DNA of 64,000 nucleotides from a virus. The position numbers and the translations under genes are program-made. Positions 1,317-58,395 of this stretch are shown here, in pieces (within the stretch, counting starts at the first letter, position 1; every line of letters starts with the position of its first letter). The notes beneath the pieces were generated by a model, which worked only from the letters and a program-made list of their open reading frames with translations, was not told the DNA's origin and searched no databases. The stretch covers positions 1 through 64,000 of IMG/VR virus record IMGVR_UViG_3300023174_000056; one strand, given 5' to 3'.

Positions 1317-1392
1317 TGGTGAGGAAGGTGGGACTCGAACCCACAACTAACGGCTTAAAAGGCCGCTACTCTAACCATTGAGTTACTTCCCC
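1317..1392 (-). tRNA. tRNA-Lys(UUU)
   Basis: Cloverleaf with acceptor GGGGAAG/CTTCCTC, anticodon stem GCGGC/GCCGT and loop CTTTTAA (anticodon TTT), T-arm GTGGG/CCCAC, discriminator A and encoded CCA. Confidence 0.93.
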
Positions 1393-1495: not shown

Positions 1496-1779
1496 TGGCT
1501 GGCGAAGTAGGATTCGAACCTACGACCCGATGGTTACATACCACTATAGTTTTCACTACCCATTTCTGGTTTGTGGTCTGGACTATTCCATCATCCGCTT
1601 GGGATGGACTGATTATAGTCTCTGCACGTTCCTGATTTCTCAGGCTTCGCTCAAGATTGCCACGCTTAATACTTTAAGCAGAGGGTTCCTTGAATTTACA
1701 GTCTTTTCATTTTGATGTTACCATCAAACGCTGCTATTTTGTTTACAGCCATCTGCTCTGCCTACTGAGCTATTCGCCA
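1496..1779 (-). tRNA. tRNA-Asn(GUU) interrupted by a group I intron
   Basis: Two tRNA halves flank a 208-base insert. The 5' half (1745-1779) gives acceptor TGGCGAA, D-arm GCTC/GAGC and GATGGCTGT; the 3' half (1496-1536) gives TAACCATC, a T-arm with TTCGAAT, acceptor TTCGCCA, discriminator G and encoded CCA. Joining after T1745 and before T1536 yields stem GATGG/CCATC with the seven-base loop CTGTTAA and anticodon GTT, closely matching bacterial tRNA-Asn including G73. Joins one base either way fail to give a seven-base loop with intron-terminal G. The HNH gene upstream ends inside this gene: its TAG stop is tRNA bases 8-10. Confidence 0.9.
1537..1744 (-). ncRNA. group I intron in the anticodon loop of tRNA-Asn
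   Basis: Self-splicing intron signature is clear. The 5' exon ends in GCTGT, which pairs with the intron guide GCAGC so that the last exon base forms the required U-G wobble; the intron ends in G. P2 is a perfect hairpin with a GTAA tetraloop (1711-1728). Q-like AATCTTGAGCGAAGCC (1643-1658), R-like GTGCAGAGACT (1617-1627) and S-like ATAGTCC (1580-1586) match the conserved core, with R and S able to form P7. The size and core resemble the small tRNA introns of cyanobacteria and proteobacteria (subgroup IC3). It splits the anticodon between its second and third bases and contains no reading frame. Confidence 0.9.
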
Positions 1780-2327
1780 ACTAAACCTAATACTTTTGCT
1801 CTCTTTCTTATTGCATTATCCGATACGCCCAGCATTTTTCCTATTGCTACCATGCTATGCGAATCTAATAAACTCTTTAGATCAACACTATCCCAATTAA
1901 CTTTTCTGTTCTTTATATGAGCGCACTTTTCCGAACAAGTTACATTATTTCTATTTTTTTTCTTGCCACAAACAGGGCACTCATTCATTTTATCCAATCT
2001 TTCAGTTTCTCTATAATTTTCAAAGATTGGATTGAAGGTTGGCAAATTATTTGGTATTTCAACCAAACCTTCATGGTATTCTCTATGGCACCGACAGCAT
2101 AGGATAACACATTTTTTGACTTCAGAAACGAGTCTTGACCAGCTTTTTATATTACCTCTTGCTGCTCCTAATGCAAACTCTTTAGTAGATGGATCAATGT
2201 GATGAAAATCTAAAGCGCCTTCACATTTAGAATAATTACATATTACACATTTTCCGCCCATAGCTTCCAACAATCTCAACTTTGTTTTAAGTCTCCATTG
2301 TTTTACCTTATCCGAACTTTGACTCAT
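1770..2327 (-). CDS. HNH homing endonuclease
   Basis: A 185-residue DNA endonuclease with an N-terminal HNH zinc finger: CVICNYS near residue 27, the catalytic DFHHID near residue 40, and CCRCHREYH near residue 76. A second CPVC / CSEKC zinc site follows at about residues 118-132, and the C-terminus has a helix-turn-helix (VAIGKMLGVSDNAIRKRA) for target binding. AGGAG precedes the ATG. It is not inside the intron: it lies immediately upstream, and its last codons and stop overlap the start of tRNA-Asn. That arrangement suggests a free-standing endonuclease promoting spread of the nearby intron. Confidence 0.9.
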   Translation of the reverse strand: MSQSSDKVKQWRLKTKLRLLEAMGGKCVICNYSKCEGALDFHHIDPSTKEFALGAARGNIKSWSRLVSEVKKCVILCCRCHREYHEGLVEIPNNLPTFNPIFENYRETERLDKMNECPVCGKKKNRNNVTCSEKCAHIKNRKVNWDSVDLKSLLDSHSMVAIGKMLGVSDNAIRKRAKVLGLVGE

Positions 2328-2454: not shown

Positions 2455-2541
2455 TGGTGGGGGAAGTCGGAATCGAACCGACAAGACCGTTAAGTCGGCA
2501 GATTTTAAGTCTGCTGTGTTTACCTATTTCACCATACCCCC
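2455..2541 (-). tRNA. tRNA-Leu(UAA)
   Basis: Class II cloverleaf with acceptor GGGGGTA/TTCCCCC (one T-T mismatch), anticodon stem GCAGA/TCTGC and loop CTTAAAA (anticodon TAA), long variable arm, T-arm GTCGG/CCGAC, discriminator A and encoded CCA. Confidence 0.92.
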
Positions 2542-5859: not shown

Positions 5860-6678
5860 TTACTCACTAAGAATTTTAAGATCACGCTCCATCATTATAG
5901 TCTCTTGGCTATTTGCAATCCACATGATTTTAAGCCTTCTTGAGCCATAGCCATAAGAATGATTCTCGTCAAACTTAGAAATCATGCCAAGACGAGGAGC
6001 ATCCTTATTTTCCATATCCCAATAAAATGGATCTTTATTTCTATTATTCTTCAATTTATCACGCAATTGGACAAGAGTTCCAATTTTTAAAGTACGAGGT
6101 CTTGCGTTTTCTAGTTTATTACGGAAGCTAGAATCATTTGTAGCAATTGCAAACTCTACAATGGTAGGAACATCCGTTGTGTTATTGTGGTCATTCCACA
6201 CTTCACGCAAGCCGGGGCGCTTTGAAAACCATTCTTGAAATGCAATCTCATACTTTTGAAATTCATTCGTCTGTGTTGCCAAATAGGCAAGGATCGAATC
6301 AAACTTTTCAAGAGTTTGGTATGAAACGCCAGTTCCATAAGCTGCACGGAGCGTACTATAATTTGCAGACGCTGCCTTAAACTCGGTATACCAAACCTCT
6401 CTGCCCTTTTCAAGATAAGGCATAAATTGCTTTACCTCATCGTCCGTAAAAGAAAGTTCGGCTTTTGTTGCCGTACTCTTGAAGTCAAAATTTGCAGGAA
6501 CAAGATCCTTCAATTTATTTCTTGAAGCGTAATCGGCAACAATATTTGCTGCCATAGCGACATCATAACTATTTCCACGCCAATACCATCGACGGCGAAA
6601 ATCCTTAAAAGTTAAGGTCTTGCCTTCATTGGTCTTATACTTGAAATCAAGCTTGTAATGGATATTCTTATTAGACAT
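5860..6678 (-). CDS. phage protein, paralogue of the gene at 7557-8258
   Basis: About 272 residues if started at MSNKNIHY, which follows GAGGG; an upstream ATG adds 15 residues without a binding site. The N-terminal two thirds are helical. The C-terminal ~80 residues (IGTLVQLRDK, LGMISKF, GSRRLKIMWIA, MERDLKIL) mirror the end of 7557-8258 (IGAVVEIRQT, CAVLSYE, GSRQYSVMPF, YEKDIKKY), so both share a small barrel-like terminal domain. Function unknown. Its start overlaps the upstream stop. Confidence 0.75.
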   Translation of the reverse strand: MSNKNIHYKLDFKYKTNEGKTLTFKDFRRRWYWRGNSYDVAMAANIVADYASRNKLKDLVPANFDFKSTATKAELSFTDDEVKQFMPYLEKGREVWYTEFKAASANYSTLRAAYGTGVSYQTLEKFDSILAYLATQTNEFQKYEIAFQEWFSKRPGLREVWNDHNNTTDVPTIVEFAIATNDSSFRNKLENARPRTLKIGTLVQLRDKLKNNRNKDPFYWDMENKDAPRLGMISKFDENHSYGYGSRRLKIMWIANSQETIMMERDLKILSE

Positions 6679-6937
6679 TATCAACAGCCCTCGTTTGGAA
6701 GATAGGAAGATCCATTTGCTCATTTTCGGAGCGATATTGTGAATGACGAATAAAGAGAATATTTAGACAATTCTTCTCTAGAACCTTGCTATTAAAGTCT
6801 AAAGAAAAATCTTCCCAATTCCAATTCTCGTTATCCTTGAGTTCTGGATGCTTTGAATAGACATACTCCATCAAAATGTTTTGAACTTCCTCACCAGTAA
6901 GATCAATATTAACAACTTCGCTCTTAGTAGAATTCAT
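6671..6937 (-). CDS. hypothetical acidic protein (88 aa)
   Basis: Start taken at MNSTKSE, eight bases after GAGAG. Acidic helix-forming protein containing LTGEEVQNILMEYVYSK. Unrecognised. Ends inside the start of the next gene. Confidence 0.68.
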   Translation of the reverse strand: MNSTKSEVVNIDLTGEEVQNILMEYVYSKHPELKDNENWNWEDFSLDFNSKVLEKNCLNILFIRHSQYRSENEQMDLPIFQTRAVDNV

Positions 6938-16410: not shown

Positions 16411-16606
16411 GTCCTTGAAATTCCACAGTATATCTACCATCCTTGTTCATGGCTAGAATCATCATGTGTTCTATCAGATAAGAAAAATCATCTGCGTTAA
16501 AACCATCTTGCTCCCTAGGTATATCAAAGCTTATAATTACTCTCTCAGCGTCTTTAGAGATCTTAGCCTCAAACTTGCCTTGAGTTATTTTTATCGTTTC
16601 CATCAT
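16388..16606 (-). CDS. hypothetical protein (72 aa)
   Basis: Two adjacent ATGs follow GAGAGG; either may be used. Strand-rich (IKITQGKFEAKIS, VIISFDIP), then a helix. Unrecognised. Coupled to purA: its start overlaps the upstream stop by four bases, and its end overlaps promoter 16382. Confidence 0.7.
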   Translation of the reverse strand: MMETIKITQGKFEAKISKDAERVIISFDIPREQDGFNADDFSYLIEHMMILAMNKDGRYTVEFQGLDTPQSL

Positions 16607-17601
16607 AGCCTCTCTGGTGAGTCAGACCAATAAATTTCTGTTGATCTTGGGAGTTTATTAACAAACCACTCCTTCATCTGATCCTCTGATTTGAATTCTA
16701 ATAGCGCACCAGATTCATCATAAATCTTCCATTGCTTAATATCTCTCAGGATATCGGCTTTATTAAATACAATCTTATTAGCTCCATTTAGATCGATAGC
16801 CTTGAAAAGGCTTTTTGTATTAATCCAATTACATTGTCTTGCTCTTCCAGTTGTTGCGCCATATTCTGCACCTTTTTCACGGATTTCATTAAAAATTGAA
16901 TCCTCTGGCTCAAACTTTTTCATTCCAACATAAGTCTCATAAACCTTAGCAACGCCCCAGACATTACGGATCCTTCTTGGAGGAACACCATTAGCAATTG
17001 CAGCAGCAACAGTACATCCACTAGAAGTAACATAAGGATAGTCTCCCCAGTCAATATCCAATCCAAAGCCCTGCGCACCTTCAAAAAGGATTCTATTAAT
17101 CTCTCTAGAAGTGTATAGTTCTTCATACATATCAATTAGATATGGCTTTAAAATTTCTACCTGTTCCGCTCGTATGCCCTTACGCCAATGTTTGTCACGA
17201 TAGGCTTGACCGACTCCACGCTTGGTTGTTCCGATAGTGTTATCTTGTCGGTCTTCTTCAATGTGTTCGCTAGTAATGATGTGCGCATTGCGGGCGATGA
17301 AAACAACGCCATCAGTTTTAATACCACCATCTTGAAGCTCCTTTAATTCTTTAAAAAAATGTTCAACGTTTACCACACAGCCCGGTCCAATGATGCTCTT
17401 AATACCAAAAAATACTCCGCTTGGAATACTGTGTGTTACAAACTTTTTTCCTTGATGATAAATTGTATGACCAGCATTATTACCACCGTTATAACGAACA
17501 ACGTGTGTATAATTTTCTCTTTTGCATAATTGGTGTGTTACTTTGCCCTTGCCGCTATCTCCATAAGCCAAATCTACTACAACATCTGCGTAATCAATCA
17601 T
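16603..17601 (-). CDS. purA: adenylosuccinate synthetase family (PurA/PurZ)
   Basis: A 332-residue enzyme that joins aspartate to a purine nucleotide using a nucleoside triphosphate. Visible: the phosphate loop GDSGKGK near residue 14, NAGHT with the catalytic His near residue 45, IGTTKRGVGQAY, EGAQG, YPYVTSSGC, and TTGRARQ near the substrate pocket. Cellular PurA has GDEGKGK and about 430 residues; the shorter form is typical of phage and archaeal members. Phage relatives include PurZ, which acts on dGMP to make diaminopurine for Z-DNA; the Glu-to-Ser change in the loop makes that worth testing, though the catalytic Asp is kept. Start is the ATG after GGGAG, not the upstream TTG. Promoter 17640-17668. 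Confidence 0.88.
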   Translation of the reverse strand: MIDYADVVVDLAYGDSGKGKVTHQLCKRENYTHVVRYNGGNNAGHTIYHQGKKFVTHSIPSGVFFGIKSIIGPGCVVNVEHFFKELKELQDGGIKTDGVVFIARNAHIITSEHIEEDRQDNTIGTTKRGVGQAYRDKHWRKGIRAEQVEILKPYLIDMYEELYTSREINRILFEGAQGFGLDIDWGDYPYVTSSGCTVAAAIANGVPPRRIRNVWGVAKVYETYVGMKKFEPEDSIFNEIREKGAEYGATTGRARQCNWINTKSLFKAIDLNGANKIVFNKADILRDIKQWKIYDESGALLEFKSEDQMKEWFVNKLPRSTEIYWSDSPERL

Positions 17602-18296
17602 ATATTCTCCCAATCAAATTGTATCTTGACTCTATCATCACTATAGCACAGCCTACGGTAGTGTTCAACATCTGCGCTCCACCGCATACCCGTCCACCAT
17701 TCAAAACCGTCGTAATAGCTTTTATAAATTGAACAGCTTTCATACCCAGAAGATAAATAAACAAAATCATATTTTTTTAATTTTGCATAAGAGCATAAGT
17801 AATGAATATTTAATCTTCCAAGAGATAGTTTAGAATCTTCATAATCCCAAGCAAATTCAACAGCAAATATGTTATTTGCCAATAATTTAAAAAAACAAAA
17901 GCCAATTATTTTTCCATCGTAAGTATAATAAACATGACCATTTGAGGTTTTTATTATATCTTCTAATGTATAATCTTGGCTTTTGAAATTTTTATATTTT
18001 ATGTATTTATTGTATATTTCACCAAATATTTTTTTCTTATTTTCTGTGAGAGAAATATCAAAATAGACTTTTATTTTTTTACTTTTACTTAAAAGTTTTT
18101 TATTTGGTAAATAATTTTTAATATTGATTCTTGTTGATCTTGTTTGAAACCATAAATTATTAACTAATGGACACCATCCACCCTCTATGGCTTGGCTATA
18201 TTCTTCTTCGCCTACTATGGCACCAATTGGAACATAAATATATGATTGATCACGCATTTTACCGAAACCATGCGTGTGGTCATATATTATCTTCAT
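17598..18296 (-). CDS. GNAT-fold protein, arginyl/leucyl-transferase-like
   Basis: A 232-residue protein. Residues ~115-215 (GHVYYTYDGKIIGFCFFKLL, VYLSSGYESCSIYKSYYDGF) follow the layout of the GNAT domain of aminoacyl-tRNA-protein transferases (Ate1/Bpt), including the tyrosine-glycine-tyrosine like turn before a basic helix. Such enzymes tag N-termini for degradation by ClpP-type proteases. The N-terminal half is lysine-rich and unassigned. The match is by pattern only; another GNAT function is possible. The promoter for purA lies in its last codons. Confidence 0.6.
   Translation of the reverse strand: MKIIYDHTHGFGKMRDQSYIYVPIGAIVGEEEYSQAIEGGWCPLVNNLWFQTRSTRINIKNYLPNKKLLSKSKKIKVYFDISLTENKKKIFGEIYNKYIKYKNFKSQDYTLEDIIKTSNGHVYYTYDGKIIGFCFFKLLANNIFAVEFAWDYEDSKLSLGRLNIHYLCSYAKLKKYDFVYLSSGYESCSIYKSYYDGFEWWTGMRWSADVEHYRRLCYSDDRVKIQFDWENI
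17640..17668 (-). promoter_or_regulatory. sigma70 promoter for purA, inside a coding sequence
   Basis: -35 TTGAAC, 17-base spacer ending in TGC, -10 TATAGT; lies in the 3' end of the upstream gene. Confidence 0.72.
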
Positions 18297-27759: not shown

Positions 27760-29340
27760 TTATGTATCAACAATTGCATGAGAAGTAGTCAATAAAGTGG
27801 ACGCCGCAGATACAGCATTTTGTAATGCACAACGTGTTACCTTTGCTGGGTCTATAATTCCAGCTTTATCCATATTTACGTACTCTCCAGTAGCGAAATT
27901 CCTACCAGCCCAGATGTCATCACCGCATTTATTTAATACAGTTTCGACAACTACATCTGGCTTGTCCCCACAATTTTCCGCTAATTTACGTATTGGTTCT
28001 TCACACGCTCTTTGAAGAATTTTTACTCCAAACCGTTCGTCTTGATTATCCACAGAAACATTCTGCTCTAAGCCTCTAGACAATTTTAATAATGCACAAC
28101 CTCCTCCTGGTAAAATACCTTCTAATTGCGCTGATTTAACAGCCTCTAGAGCATCTTCGATGCGATGCTTGCGCTCGACCATATCTACCTCTGTCGTACC
28201 GCCCACACGAATTATGGCGACCCCGCTAGCGAGTCTGGTAATTCTTTCTTGGATGCGCTCGCACTCTGCAAGGTCTTCGGTCTGCAAAATTTCCTGCTTT
28301 AACCTGTCAATATGGCGCTCGACCTCCTCATAATTGCCGCCACCGCCCACAATTGTTGTATGCAGTTTTAGCGATTCAACTGTTTTAGCGGTTCCTAGAT
28401 CCTTCAGTTTAACATCACGTAATGGTCTTCCGCTTTCACGTGTAATAAAAGTAGCACCAGTCGCTAGAGCAAGATCTTTCATAATATTTCTACGCTCTTC
28501 TCCGTACTTTGGAGCCTTAATCACACCAATCTTCATACTGCCACGAACAGCATTTAAGATAAGTGCTGCCAATGCTTGGCCTTCAACATTTTCTGCAATG
28601 ATAACAAAAGGCTTCTTCTCTCTTGCCATAATTTCTAGAGCAGGGAATAGATCATCAAGATTATCTATGCTGTGGTCTGTAATAAGAAGCCGAACATCGT
28701 CAAACCTCATTGCGGCACGAGCTTCGTCAGTAACAAATTGTGGAGAAAGATAACCAGAACTAACTTGGAAACCTTCAACGATATCTAAGCTTGTTTCTAC
28801 GCTTTTTCCTGCCTCAATAGTGATAGCGCCGTCTTTACCAACCTTGTCTACAGCAGTAGCAATAAGTTTACCAATCTTTTTATCACCATTTGCTGAAATT
28901 GTTGCGACATGCTCAATCTCTTCCAAGCTTTTAATTGTAACAGACCTATCTTCTATATTCTTAACAATATATTCAACAGCTGCATCCATTCCACGCTTTA
29001 GATCAGTTGGGGACGCACCAGCAATTATATATTTTTGTGCTTCATTCATAATAGCTCTAGCTAAAACAGTAGCTGTTGTAGTACCGTCGCCAGCCTCTGT
29101 AGCTGTAACCGCAGAAGCTTGTTTTAGCACTTGCGCTCCAACGTTTTCAAATGGATCCTGCAATTCAACTGCCTGAGCTACAGTTACACCATCCTTAGTG
29201 ATAATTGGATTACGGCCCTTCAAGTGGATTACTACATTTTTACCTTTTGGTCCTAAAGTAGCCGAAACTGCGTCCGCTAATTTATTTACACCTGTTAAAA
29301 TTTTTGTATTTAAAGATAAACCATTATCATATACTTTCAC
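27760..29340 (-). CDS. groEL: GroEL-type chaperonin
   Basis: A 526-residue group I chaperonin. ATP site: TLGPKGKNVV, ITKDGVTVA, GDGTTTATVLA (with the hydrolytic Asp), and RIEDALEAVKSA in the C-terminal equatorial part with the second catalytic Asp. Apical domain VEGFQVSSGYLSPQF is present. The C-terminal GGM tail of cellular GroEL is missing. Phage chaperonins fold capsid or other phage proteins; a GroES-like partner is encoded at 44295. Neighbours are a membrane protein, a nuclease-like protein and a ClpP protease, consistent with an assembly block. Confidence 0.97.
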   Translation of the reverse strand: MKVYDNGLSLNTKILTGVNKLADAVSATLGPKGKNVVIHLKGRNPIITKDGVTVAQAVELQDPFENVGAQVLKQASAVTATEAGDGTTTATVLARAIMNEAQKYIIAGASPTDLKRGMDAAVEYIVKNIEDRSVTIKSLEEIEHVATISANGDKKIGKLIATAVDKVGKDGAITIEAGKSVETSLDIVEGFQVSSGYLSPQFVTDEARAAMRFDDVRLLITDHSIDNLDDLFPALEIMAREKKPFVIIAENVEGQALAALILNAVRGSMKIGVIKAPKYGEERRNIMKDLALATGATFITRESGRPLRDVKLKDLGTAKTVESLKLHTTIVGGGGNYEEVERHIDRLKQEILQTEDLAECERIQERITRLASGVAIIRVGGTTEVDMVERKHRIEDALEAVKSAQLEGILPGGGCALLKLSRGLEQNVSVDNQDERFGVKILQRACEEPIRKLAENCGDKPDVVVETVLNKCGDDIWAGRNFATGEYVNMDKAGIIDPAKVTRCALQNAVSAASTLLTTSHAIVDT

Positions 29341-56363: not shown

Positions 56364-57187
56364 TCTTGAACCTTTCTTGAATAAGCAACCACATAACAGT
56401 AGCTCTGATTCTGTGGCGTGCTATGTATTCTATACGAAATTTTCGTGCTGTCAAGAACTTTTTGACGCATATTTTCTTTTATTACCCTAAATAGTTTTCC
56501 ATTAGATTTTAATTCGCTTTCATTTATTACAAAATAATAGCATTTATCGTCGATAAATTCAAGAGGATATAATAATTTTTCAATATCATTTTCTAAATCA
56601 TAAACTCCAAAAGTCACTATTCTGCTAATTTCTTTTGGAGGCGTTGAATTATCAATAATAGCCTCTTGCGATGAAAGCTTCAGATACCCTGATAAACAGT
56701 TATGTATAACTTTATTTAAAGTCTCATTATATTCCATAATTGGAATATCTCCAACTATATTTTCTATCATTTGATTACTAACTATAAATGTGTTTTTAAA
56801 CACACCAGATCTTGCATATTCTTGAAATACATTAAATGTTAATTTATCTTGCAATTTTCCTGTTGTTGCTAACAACGATGTATCTGGTCTTATATAAGCA
56901 ACATTTAGCTCTTTTCCCTTTAATTCGCTTAAGACCCTCAGAGAACACCCAGAAACCTTCCCAGATCCACCAACAATTAATATAATTTTTTCTGTAACAT
57001 CTGAGAAATATTCAGAAAGATCTGGGGTATTTGCTTCGTACAACTCTGGCGTATTCTGTTTTTTTAAAGAAAAACAATTTTCGCCTTCTATGTCAACATC
57101 TATAAGTTTAACTTTAAATGCAGCGTCTCCTTCAAATTTTTCAGCAACATTGCACCCAGCAGAACCAAGACCAATTATTGTATACAT
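56360..57187 (-). CDS. divergent tubulin/FtsZ-like GTPase
   Basis: A 275-residue protein. IIGLGSAGCNVAEKFEG at residues 4-20 matches the first nucleotide loop of FtsZ/tubulin (GxGGxGxN), LIDVD follows at the place of FtsZ's NTD, and LIVGGSGKVSGCSLRVLSEL near residue 70 stands where the GGGTGSG signature loop belongs. NVAYIRPDTSLL, then FIVSNQMIENIVGD and EYNETLNKVIHNCL continue the FtsZ order. Loop glycines are partly replaced, so filament formation is unproven. A plain Rossmann protein is the alternative. Phage tubulins (PhuZ, TubZ) position DNA in the cell. Confidence 0.65.
   Translation of the reverse strand: MYTIIGLGSAGCNVAEKFEGDAAFKVKLIDVDIEGENCFSLKKQNTPELYEANTPDLSEYFSDVTEKIILIVGGSGKVSGCSLRVLSELKGKELNVAYIRPDTSLLATTGKLQDKLTFNVFQEYARSGVFKNTFIVSNQMIENIVGDIPIMEYNETLNKVIHNCLSGYLKLSSQEAIIDNSTPPKEISRIVTFGVYDLENDIEKLLYPLEFIDDKCYYFVINESELKSNGKLFRVIKENMRQKVLDSTKISYRIHSTPQNQSYCYVVAYSRKVQE
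56427..56454 (-). promoter_or_regulatory. probable promoter inside a coding sequence
   Basis: -35 TTGACA, 16-base spacer, -10 TAGAAT, near the end of the tubulin-like gene; reads toward 56130-56363. Confidence 0.6.
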
Positions 57188-58395
57188 TATTCTACCTTAA
57201 GATTTAATTTCTTCATATTACCATAATCACGACCAACTTTAATGTTACAAAGAAATTTACCAAACTGAGTGTTTTGAACAATTTTTGCAATTTCTAGCAA
57301 ATTTTGTTTTTCATCATCAGTAATATCAAGTACAAATTCGTCATGTAATAAAAAAGCAACAAAGCTTTTCTTGTCTGACAAATAATCATCGACTTTAATG
57401 ACTTGCCTGTGGAATAAATCAATAAAAGTTGACTGATTTAAGTATGGGATTGCATGATGATCATCGGCTTCAATTTTTCTACCAAATGGTGTATACACAA
57501 AACCATTTACATAATATAGTGATTTGAGAACTTCTTTTTTGAAGACATTATCAAGATTTTGAGCATATTGCTGGTATGTAGGATTGCTTGAGTTGTATAA
57601 CCACTCGATAACAACCTTCTTTGATTTATCTCTTGATAAACCTCCGATGATATCCCTCCCGATCCATTCATATAAATCTTCCTGTGGCTGAACGCAATTT
57701 AATAATGCTAATGAAGTTCTTAACTCGGCTGCATTTATATCAAATGCAACAAACCAATCGTTATGAGGTTTTAAGGCATATCTAAACTGTTTTTGAAAAC
57801 TTTGAATAGGAAAACTTCCCTTTTTCATAGCCAATCTTCCAGTAACAGCACCAAACAAATTATAATCAATTACTTTACTAACATCTCGCATCTTATGGTA
57901 ATAAGATAGATCTTTTTCATTTAAGATATTTTTCTTTAATGATTCAAGGTCAATATTTAATGGTCGATACTTTATGTCAATAAGTAACTCATTAAATCTG
58001 CGAAAGAAATCATACTGCTCTGGTTTTGGATAAGTGTCAAATACATGTCTAGTAATTTTATTTTTAATGTCACAATATTGCTCCAGAAATTTTTGTGGCG
58101 TTAAATCAAAAAAACAATTTTCTTCTAATGAAACTTTTGCTTCAATAAAAGAAGACATAAAGGCTTTTAACCTAGATCTAATTTCTGTCCATTCATTTTT
58201 TAAATGTTCTGGACAAACTTCGTCAAGTGTTTTGCCTTCACAATATAAGTTTGCATATTGGATTTTTTGCCCTTTTAAATAGGGCGAATAGCTCCAAGAT
58301 GCCGTTAAATTTTCTGGAATTTTATCAAAATGGAGTTTGCCATTCGCATAAACCCCAACGCATTCTTTTTTATCATCTAGTGTCTGGAATAGCAA
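57187..58395 (-). CDS. family A DNA polymerase domain
   Basis: A 402-residue protein with polymerase I catalytic motifs only: VTGRLAMKKGSFPIQ, motif A VAFDINAAELRTSLAL (metal Asp and the Glu-Leu-Arg), a motif B helix with SRDKSKKVVIEWLYNS, FGRKIEAD, and motif C LLHDEFVLDI. The 3'-5' and 5'-3' exonuclease domains are absent. As a second polymerase beside DnaE it may fill gaps or bypass lesions; Z-genome phages use a family A enzyme (DpoZ), an alternative to test. One-base overlap with the tubulin-like gene. Confidence 0.88.
   Translation of the reverse strand: MLFQTLDDKKECVGVYANGKLHFDKIPENLTASWSYSPYLKGQKIQYANLYCEGKTLDEVCPEHLKNEWTEIRSRLKAFMSSFIEAKVSLEENCFFDLTPQKFLEQYCDIKNKITRHVFDTYPKPEQYDFFRRFNELLIDIKYRPLNIDLESLKKNILNEKDLSYYHKMRDVSKVIDYNLFGAVTGRLAMKKGSFPIQSFQKQFRYALKPHNDWFVAFDINAAELRTSLALLNCVQPQEDLYEWIGRDIIGGLSRDKSKKVVIEWLYNSSNPTYQQYAQNLDNVFKKEVLKSLYYVNGFVYTPFGRKIEADDHHAIPYLNQSTFIDLFHRQVIKVDDYLSDKKSFVAFLLHDEFVLDITDDEKQNLLEIAKIVQNTQFGKFLCNIKVGRDYGNMKKLNLKVE

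Follow-up and report, generated by a model that had tools for sequence, protein, structure and literature searches.

A group I intron in the anticodon loop of a phage tRNA-Asn gene and its relatives in phage tRNA arrays

A preliminary description had proposed that a group I intron splits a phage tRNA-Asn gene in positions 1 to 64,000 of the metagenome contig IMGVR_UViG_3300023174_000056 (hereafter the window, the whole 64,000-nt stretch that was analysed). We found that the insert, taken as a whole, is very probably just that: a group I intron of the known bacterial tRNA-intron kind, residing in the tRNA-Asn of a large uncultured phage. Gene prediction returned the proposed coordinates, the Rfam group I model matched the insert above its cut-off, and the fold covaries across related introns. 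The phage origin of the record was also borne out, as it encodes an intact terminase frame, DNA polymerase III alpha, DnaB, RNR and GroEL. Moreover, predicted group I introns are common in phage tRNA genes.

The split tRNA-Asn gene and its ribozyme core

With introns allowed, ARAGORN called a tRNA-Asn at c[1496,1779] with anticodon gtt and an intron of 208 nt. Both default ARAGORN and the Rfam tRNA model skipped 1496-1779. In 20 dinucleotide-shuffled copies of the window (1.28 Mb), ARAGORN called no tRNA with a 100-400-nt intron. The intron lies in the anticodon loop, with its junction inside the anticodon (GU|U), and ends in a guanosine at 1537. Joining the exons there produces a perfect tRNA-Asn(GUU): the acceptor stem has seven pairs (T1-A72) and the anticodon stem five, and a D arm, a T arm and an encoded CCA are present. 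The joined loop CTGTTAA, the anticodon GTT and the discriminator G73 are those read in the preliminary description. No second tRNA-Asn was found in the 168-kb record.

The joined exons align with the annotated intronless tRNA-Asn of PA5oct-like Pseudomonas phages across the full 76 bases with no gaps (blastn, 85.5% identity). Judged by its sequence, that gene is an empty site, matching exactly the product that splicing would yield. A search of IMG/VR with the 287-aa neighbour (5860-6723) found no near phage relative, so no empty allele of the same lineage was recovered and the evidence for an empty site comes from other phages. The 803-aa protein had no match in the phage collection, and relatives of the polymerase reached only about 30%.

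The covariance-model hit predicted at 1537-1744 was obtained with RF00028 at 1754-1556 on the minus strand (62.5 bits, E 1.8e-13; gathering cut-off 50). Our own covariance model, R1, was built from 50 related introns and scored the window intron at 170 bits, the window being one of its 50 training sequences. Helices P1 to P9 were assigned by hand and then checked on the 50 related introns (Table 1). Across the whole fold, 89.1% of cells pair, compared with 69.9% for shuffled sequences and 30-43% when the partners are slid. Double changes occur in 46 of 59 pairs, with covariation in P2, P3, P4, P6a, P7, P8 and P9. The core-defining helices P3, P7 and P9 are preserved in nearly all sequences of the alignment; support is weak for P5, which is poorly resolved there, and for the sixth P7 pair. 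The U.G pair at the splice site is kept in 42 of the 47 aligned relatives. All of the elements named in the preliminary description are in the sequence, including the 5' wobble between exon and guide, the terminal G, Q, R and S, and the GTAA-capped P2.

Table 1. Features of the split tRNA-Asn locus and its neighbours in the window
Feature	Position	Strand	Support
tRNA-Asn exon 1 (T1 to U35), ending in ..GGCTGT	1745..1779	-	ARAGORN -i and ARAGORN on joined exons
Group I intron, 208 nt, between U35 and U36, terminal G at 1537	1537..1744	-	RF00028, model R1, covariation
tRNA-Asn exon 2 (U36 to encoded CCA)	1496..1536	-	ARAGORN, blastn of joined exons
Internal guide GCAGC, P1 with exon GCTGT (1749-1745), U.G at splice site	1730..1734	-	sequence
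P2 hairpin TTTGATG-GTAA-CATCAAA	1711..1728	-	96.7% of cells paired, double changes in 7/7 pairs
P3 5' strand GACTG, partner 1611-1607	1699..1703	-	99.6% of cells paired, double changes in 5/5 pairs
P4 (1693-1689 with 1655-1651) around P5	1651..1693	-	98.8% of cells paired, double changes in 4/5 pairs (P4)
P6 and GAAA-capped P6a	1626..1650	-	P6 100%, P6a 85.5% of cells paired
P7 5' strand GACTAT, partner 1586-1581	1615..1620	-	pairs 1-5 in 50/50 sequences, sixth in 16/50
P8 hairpin CATCC-GGATG	1592..1606	-	86% of cells paired, double changes in 4/5 pairs
P9 (ACCAC with GTGGT) around P9a and P9b; relative-finding signature	1540..1577	-	P9, P9b 100% paired
HNH endonuclease gene, 185 aa, outside the intron	1770..2327	-	phrog_35854, 1.5e-35
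tRNA-Leu(UAA), intronless, upstream neighbour in tRNA array	2455..2541	-	ARAGORN
tRNA-Lys(UUU), downstream neighbour in tRNA array	1317..1392	-	ARAGORN

This anatomy predicts splicing in infected cells. The precursor RNA would fold into P1 to P9, guanosine would attack after U35 at the U.G pair of P1, and the freed exon would then attack after the terminal G to give the joined tRNA. As a speculation, the split anticodon may hide the precursor from host anticodon nucleases.

The adjoining HNH gene, intron activity and the phage genome

The 208-nt intron encodes no endonuclease, and an HNH gene, which the preliminary description does not mention, lies beside it. The TAG stop codon of this gene (1772-1770) is U8-A9-G10 of the tRNA, an overlap of 10 nt. 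A locus of another phage (L354) has the same 10-nt overlap, with an HNH domain 45% identical to that of the window. The C-terminus of the window HNH also matches phrog_10822, the family of the internal HNH encoded by the long tRNA introns that we examined (about 670-945 nt). Homologues of the HNH gene are present on 15 of 27 contigs with an intron-bearing tRNA-Asn versus 9 of 113 with other intron-bearing tRNAs (Fisher 1.7e-7, a p-value that is indicative only, as the contigs are not independent).

The simplest reading is that an endonuclease-less intron and a free-standing HNH would share the tRNA-Asn site, an arrangement comparable to what has been termed collaborative homing in other phages (PMC3984707, PMC10448857). 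The HNH enzyme would cut intronless tRNA-Asn alleles and so move the locus in trans. We consider this its likeliest role, a plausible one, and put it at about an even chance. The gene could instead be unrelated to the intron, a free-standing homing gene with tRNA arrays as its target, located here by coincidence. Its closest relatives (L250-L253) adjoin intronless tRNA-Asn genes, and the gene may therefore home into tRNA arrays alone; however, its association in various phages with tRNA-Asn genes that bear introns, and the recurrence of the 10-nt overlap, speak against coincidence, and we rate this alternative somewhat short of even.

Could the intron be real but dead? It would then be a degraded insertion that has cost the phage its tRNA-Asn, with no selection against the loss as the host supplies one. 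Phage tRNAs are often dispensable, and two neighbouring stretches on the minus strand (1067-1137 and 1404-1484) look degenerate: both are tRNA-like, with acceptor and T arms, and in both the anticodon arm is odd (a GGGA loop of four bases in one, no U33 in the other). Neither was called as a tRNA by ARAGORN or matched by Rfam at E up to 1. In the window, however, no core helix is damaged, the sequence obeys both splice-site rules, and joining the exons gives a perfect tRNA with its identity bases and CCA, so that a dead insertion is improbable. A protein-spliced (bulge-helix-bulge) intron as in archaea would fit the anticodon-loop position but is ruled out by the group I core (Rfam, covariation), the 208-nt length and the bacterial-type tailed phage genes, and its chance is negligible.

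Elsewhere in the window, on the minus strand, are the GroEL chaperonin (27760-29340, phrog_5725, 1.8e-145), a short PurZ-like relative of adenylosuccinate synthetase (16603-17613, phrog_1211; below the cut-off of NCBIfam PurZ) and a partial family A polymerase that matches DpoZ weakly (57187-58395). From the PurZ-like and DpoZ matches, this phage may replace adenine by 2-aminoadenine.

Relatives in phages and bacteria

We searched for relatives with the pattern GTCCAGACYACAAACN{8,30}TAGTRGT, which describes the conserved 3' end of the intron. At least 119 stretches in IMG/VR match it, and among the matches listed, 103 lie inside intron-bearing tRNA genes called independently by ARAGORN. A site script placed the introns, among those same matches, in Leu(UAA) after U34 (54, plus 13 miscalled), Arg(UCU) after U33 or U34 (11), CAU after U33 (10) and Asn(GUU) after U35 (6), with single cases elsewhere. 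The ARAGORN anticodons Tyr(ata), Phe(aaa), Stop(tta) and Leu(tag) at some loci were rejected as junction artefacts; re-read by the terminal-G rule, these loci are Leu(UAA) or CAU.

A tRNA-Asn-specific pattern in IMG/VR resolved 25 tRNA-Asn introns, among which at least 7 different sequences occur. The other 43 of its 68 matches were left out of tRNA-Asn, being mostly chance matches in other sequence with a few other intron-bearing or truncated tRNAs. The first scan had contributed two further tRNA-Asn introns (L060 and L106). Thus, at least 27 viral contigs have an intron at the same tRNA-Asn position, and the window intron is not a lone case, which corrects that part of the novelty argument in the preliminary description. 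The intron nearest to the window's is L060, at 78% over the alignment versus 71% for the exons.

In GTDB genomes, the same 3'-end pattern matched at least 119 stretches, with introns mainly in Tyr(GUA), Leu(UAA), Thr(UGU), CAU, Arg(UCU) and Arg(CCU) tRNAs and none in tRNA-Asn among the matches listed; some of these contigs may be prophage or misbinned. R1 matched 24 of 79 genomes in the phylum of a Gastranaerophilales MAG (G001; Cyanobacteria in the broad sense), and all 12 of the loci inspected (L328-L339) are intron-containing tRNAs, including five Leu(UAA) and three Met(CAU). Since R1 recovers cyanobacterial tRNA-Leu and tRNA-Met introns, the phage introns belong with the known bacterial tRNA introns. 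The preliminary description was correct that the anticodon is split, but as a novelty this does not hold: most phage and bacterial relatives also have their introns inside the anticodon, the Leu(UAA) introns after U34 among them.

Cultured phages have such introns too. Outside the training set, R1 scored 169 bits for a tRNA-Leu intron of Agrobacterium phage Atu_ph07, 165 bits for an intron between two capsid-gene parts of Pelagibacter phage HTVC120P, and 83-114 bits for DnaB introns of crAss-like phages. The tRNA-Arg(CCU) intron of Microcoleus phage My-WqHQDG scored 149 bits, a partly circular value as this intron is in the training set. The same holds for the tRNA-Lys intron of the huge phage LR756508, which also has a tRNA-Arg intron; the introns of these two tRNAs score 146 and 107 bits. 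None of these cultured-phage relatives matched RF00028 at E up to 0.1, a sub-threshold search, and yet they reach 83-169 bits with R1; Rfam therefore under-detects this intron family. The PS119XW match and the phiM19 locus were rejected as holders of a window-type intron.

The crAss-like DnaB introns of the R1 family (L004 2857-3071, L005 2829-3097 and L006 2835-3063) have a GIY-YIG gene immediately upstream. One of these introns matches the window intron at 90% identity over its 3' 70 nt, which suggests intron transfer between tRNA and protein genes. In LR756508, an HNH-associated HEARO RNA (144 bits; L011 3620-3844) lies just downstream of the two intron-bearing tRNAs.

Some tRNA introns of Lak phages now score with R1 as well. 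One tRNA-Leu(UAA), in both Lak-C1 (MK250029, 332138-332674) and Lak-B1 (290953-291354; L312 and L314), contains two group I cores, one after U34 and the other apparently in the D-loop (GGAATTGGT|AAAGTG...TTTTTG|AGACACG). Removal of both cores leaves a perfect 87-nt tRNA-Leu in each phage. We know of no other D-loop group I intron. Lak-B1 (MK250020) also has a tRNA at 412033-412349 (L311) in which a group I intron (62.9 bits) divides the anticodon as CU|A; the joined tRNA is Gln-like with anticodon CUA, of the amber-suppressor type. The intron-bearing tRNA of baboon Lak phages has been called Tyr(GTA) (PMC6784885). No intact second copy of the CUA tRNA was found in Lak-B1. An alternative code has been reported for Lak phages, and with the CUA tRNA split by an intron, reading of TAG may depend on splicing. 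Such a case would tie stop-codon reassignment to ribozyme splicing.

Comparison with known systems

The group I introns of cyanobacterial and plastid tRNA-Leu(UAA) and of cyanobacterial tRNA-fMet(CAU) belong to subgroup IC3. Like the cyanobacterial Leu and fMet introns, the window intron has a homologous fold, an anticodon-loop position, a 5' exon that ends in U and a terminal G, and the cyanobacterial and plastid Leu(UAA) intron splits the anticodon as well. Unlike the cyanobacterial introns, the window's lies in a tRNA-Asn, in a phage, and with an HNH gene that is outside the intron and overlaps the tRNA. The group I introns of phage protein genes, including crAss DnaB, are of the same ribozyme class but differ in host gene. 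According to a 2014 review, all phage introns then known were in protein genes despite the many tRNAs of phages (PMC3984707). The introns in phage tRNA genes described here contradict the review's view that phage introns avoid such genes.

Introns in phage tRNAs are not in themselves new. Those of the Lak megaphages (Devoto 2019) were reported as new, enigmatic and unclassified (PMC6784885); they lie in other tRNA types and are AT-rich and divergent. The tRNA introns of Atu_ph07, My-WqHQDG and LR756508 belong to the same family as the window's and also occupy anticodon loops, in other isoacceptors. Among these genes, only that of the Microcoleus phage is annotated as a tRNA (286 nt). tRNAscan-SE 2.0 was not designed for group I introns in tRNAs (PMC8450103). 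Routine annotation misses such introns, as default ARAGORN skips the tRNA-Asn gene of the window and Rfam misses several relatives with high R1 scores, and some phage tRNA inventories are incomplete. A full-text literature search, with most subscription journals outside its scope and therefore weak as evidence of absence, turned up no account of such introns across the tRNAs of phages or in tRNA-Asn.

Why would these introns be found in so many phage tRNAs? We tentatively propose, with rather less than even confidence, that phage tRNA arrays have been overlooked as a major habitat of group I introns, which would spread between isoacceptors by changing their guide, and that the tRNA-Asn intron and the neighbouring HNH gene, whose frame ends inside the tRNA, travel together as a two-part element. 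How group I introns spread between the tRNAs of phages and bacteria becomes directly testable. Set against the known systems, the mechanism is familiar, and what is new is the host gene, the abundance of these introns in phages and the linked HNH gene.
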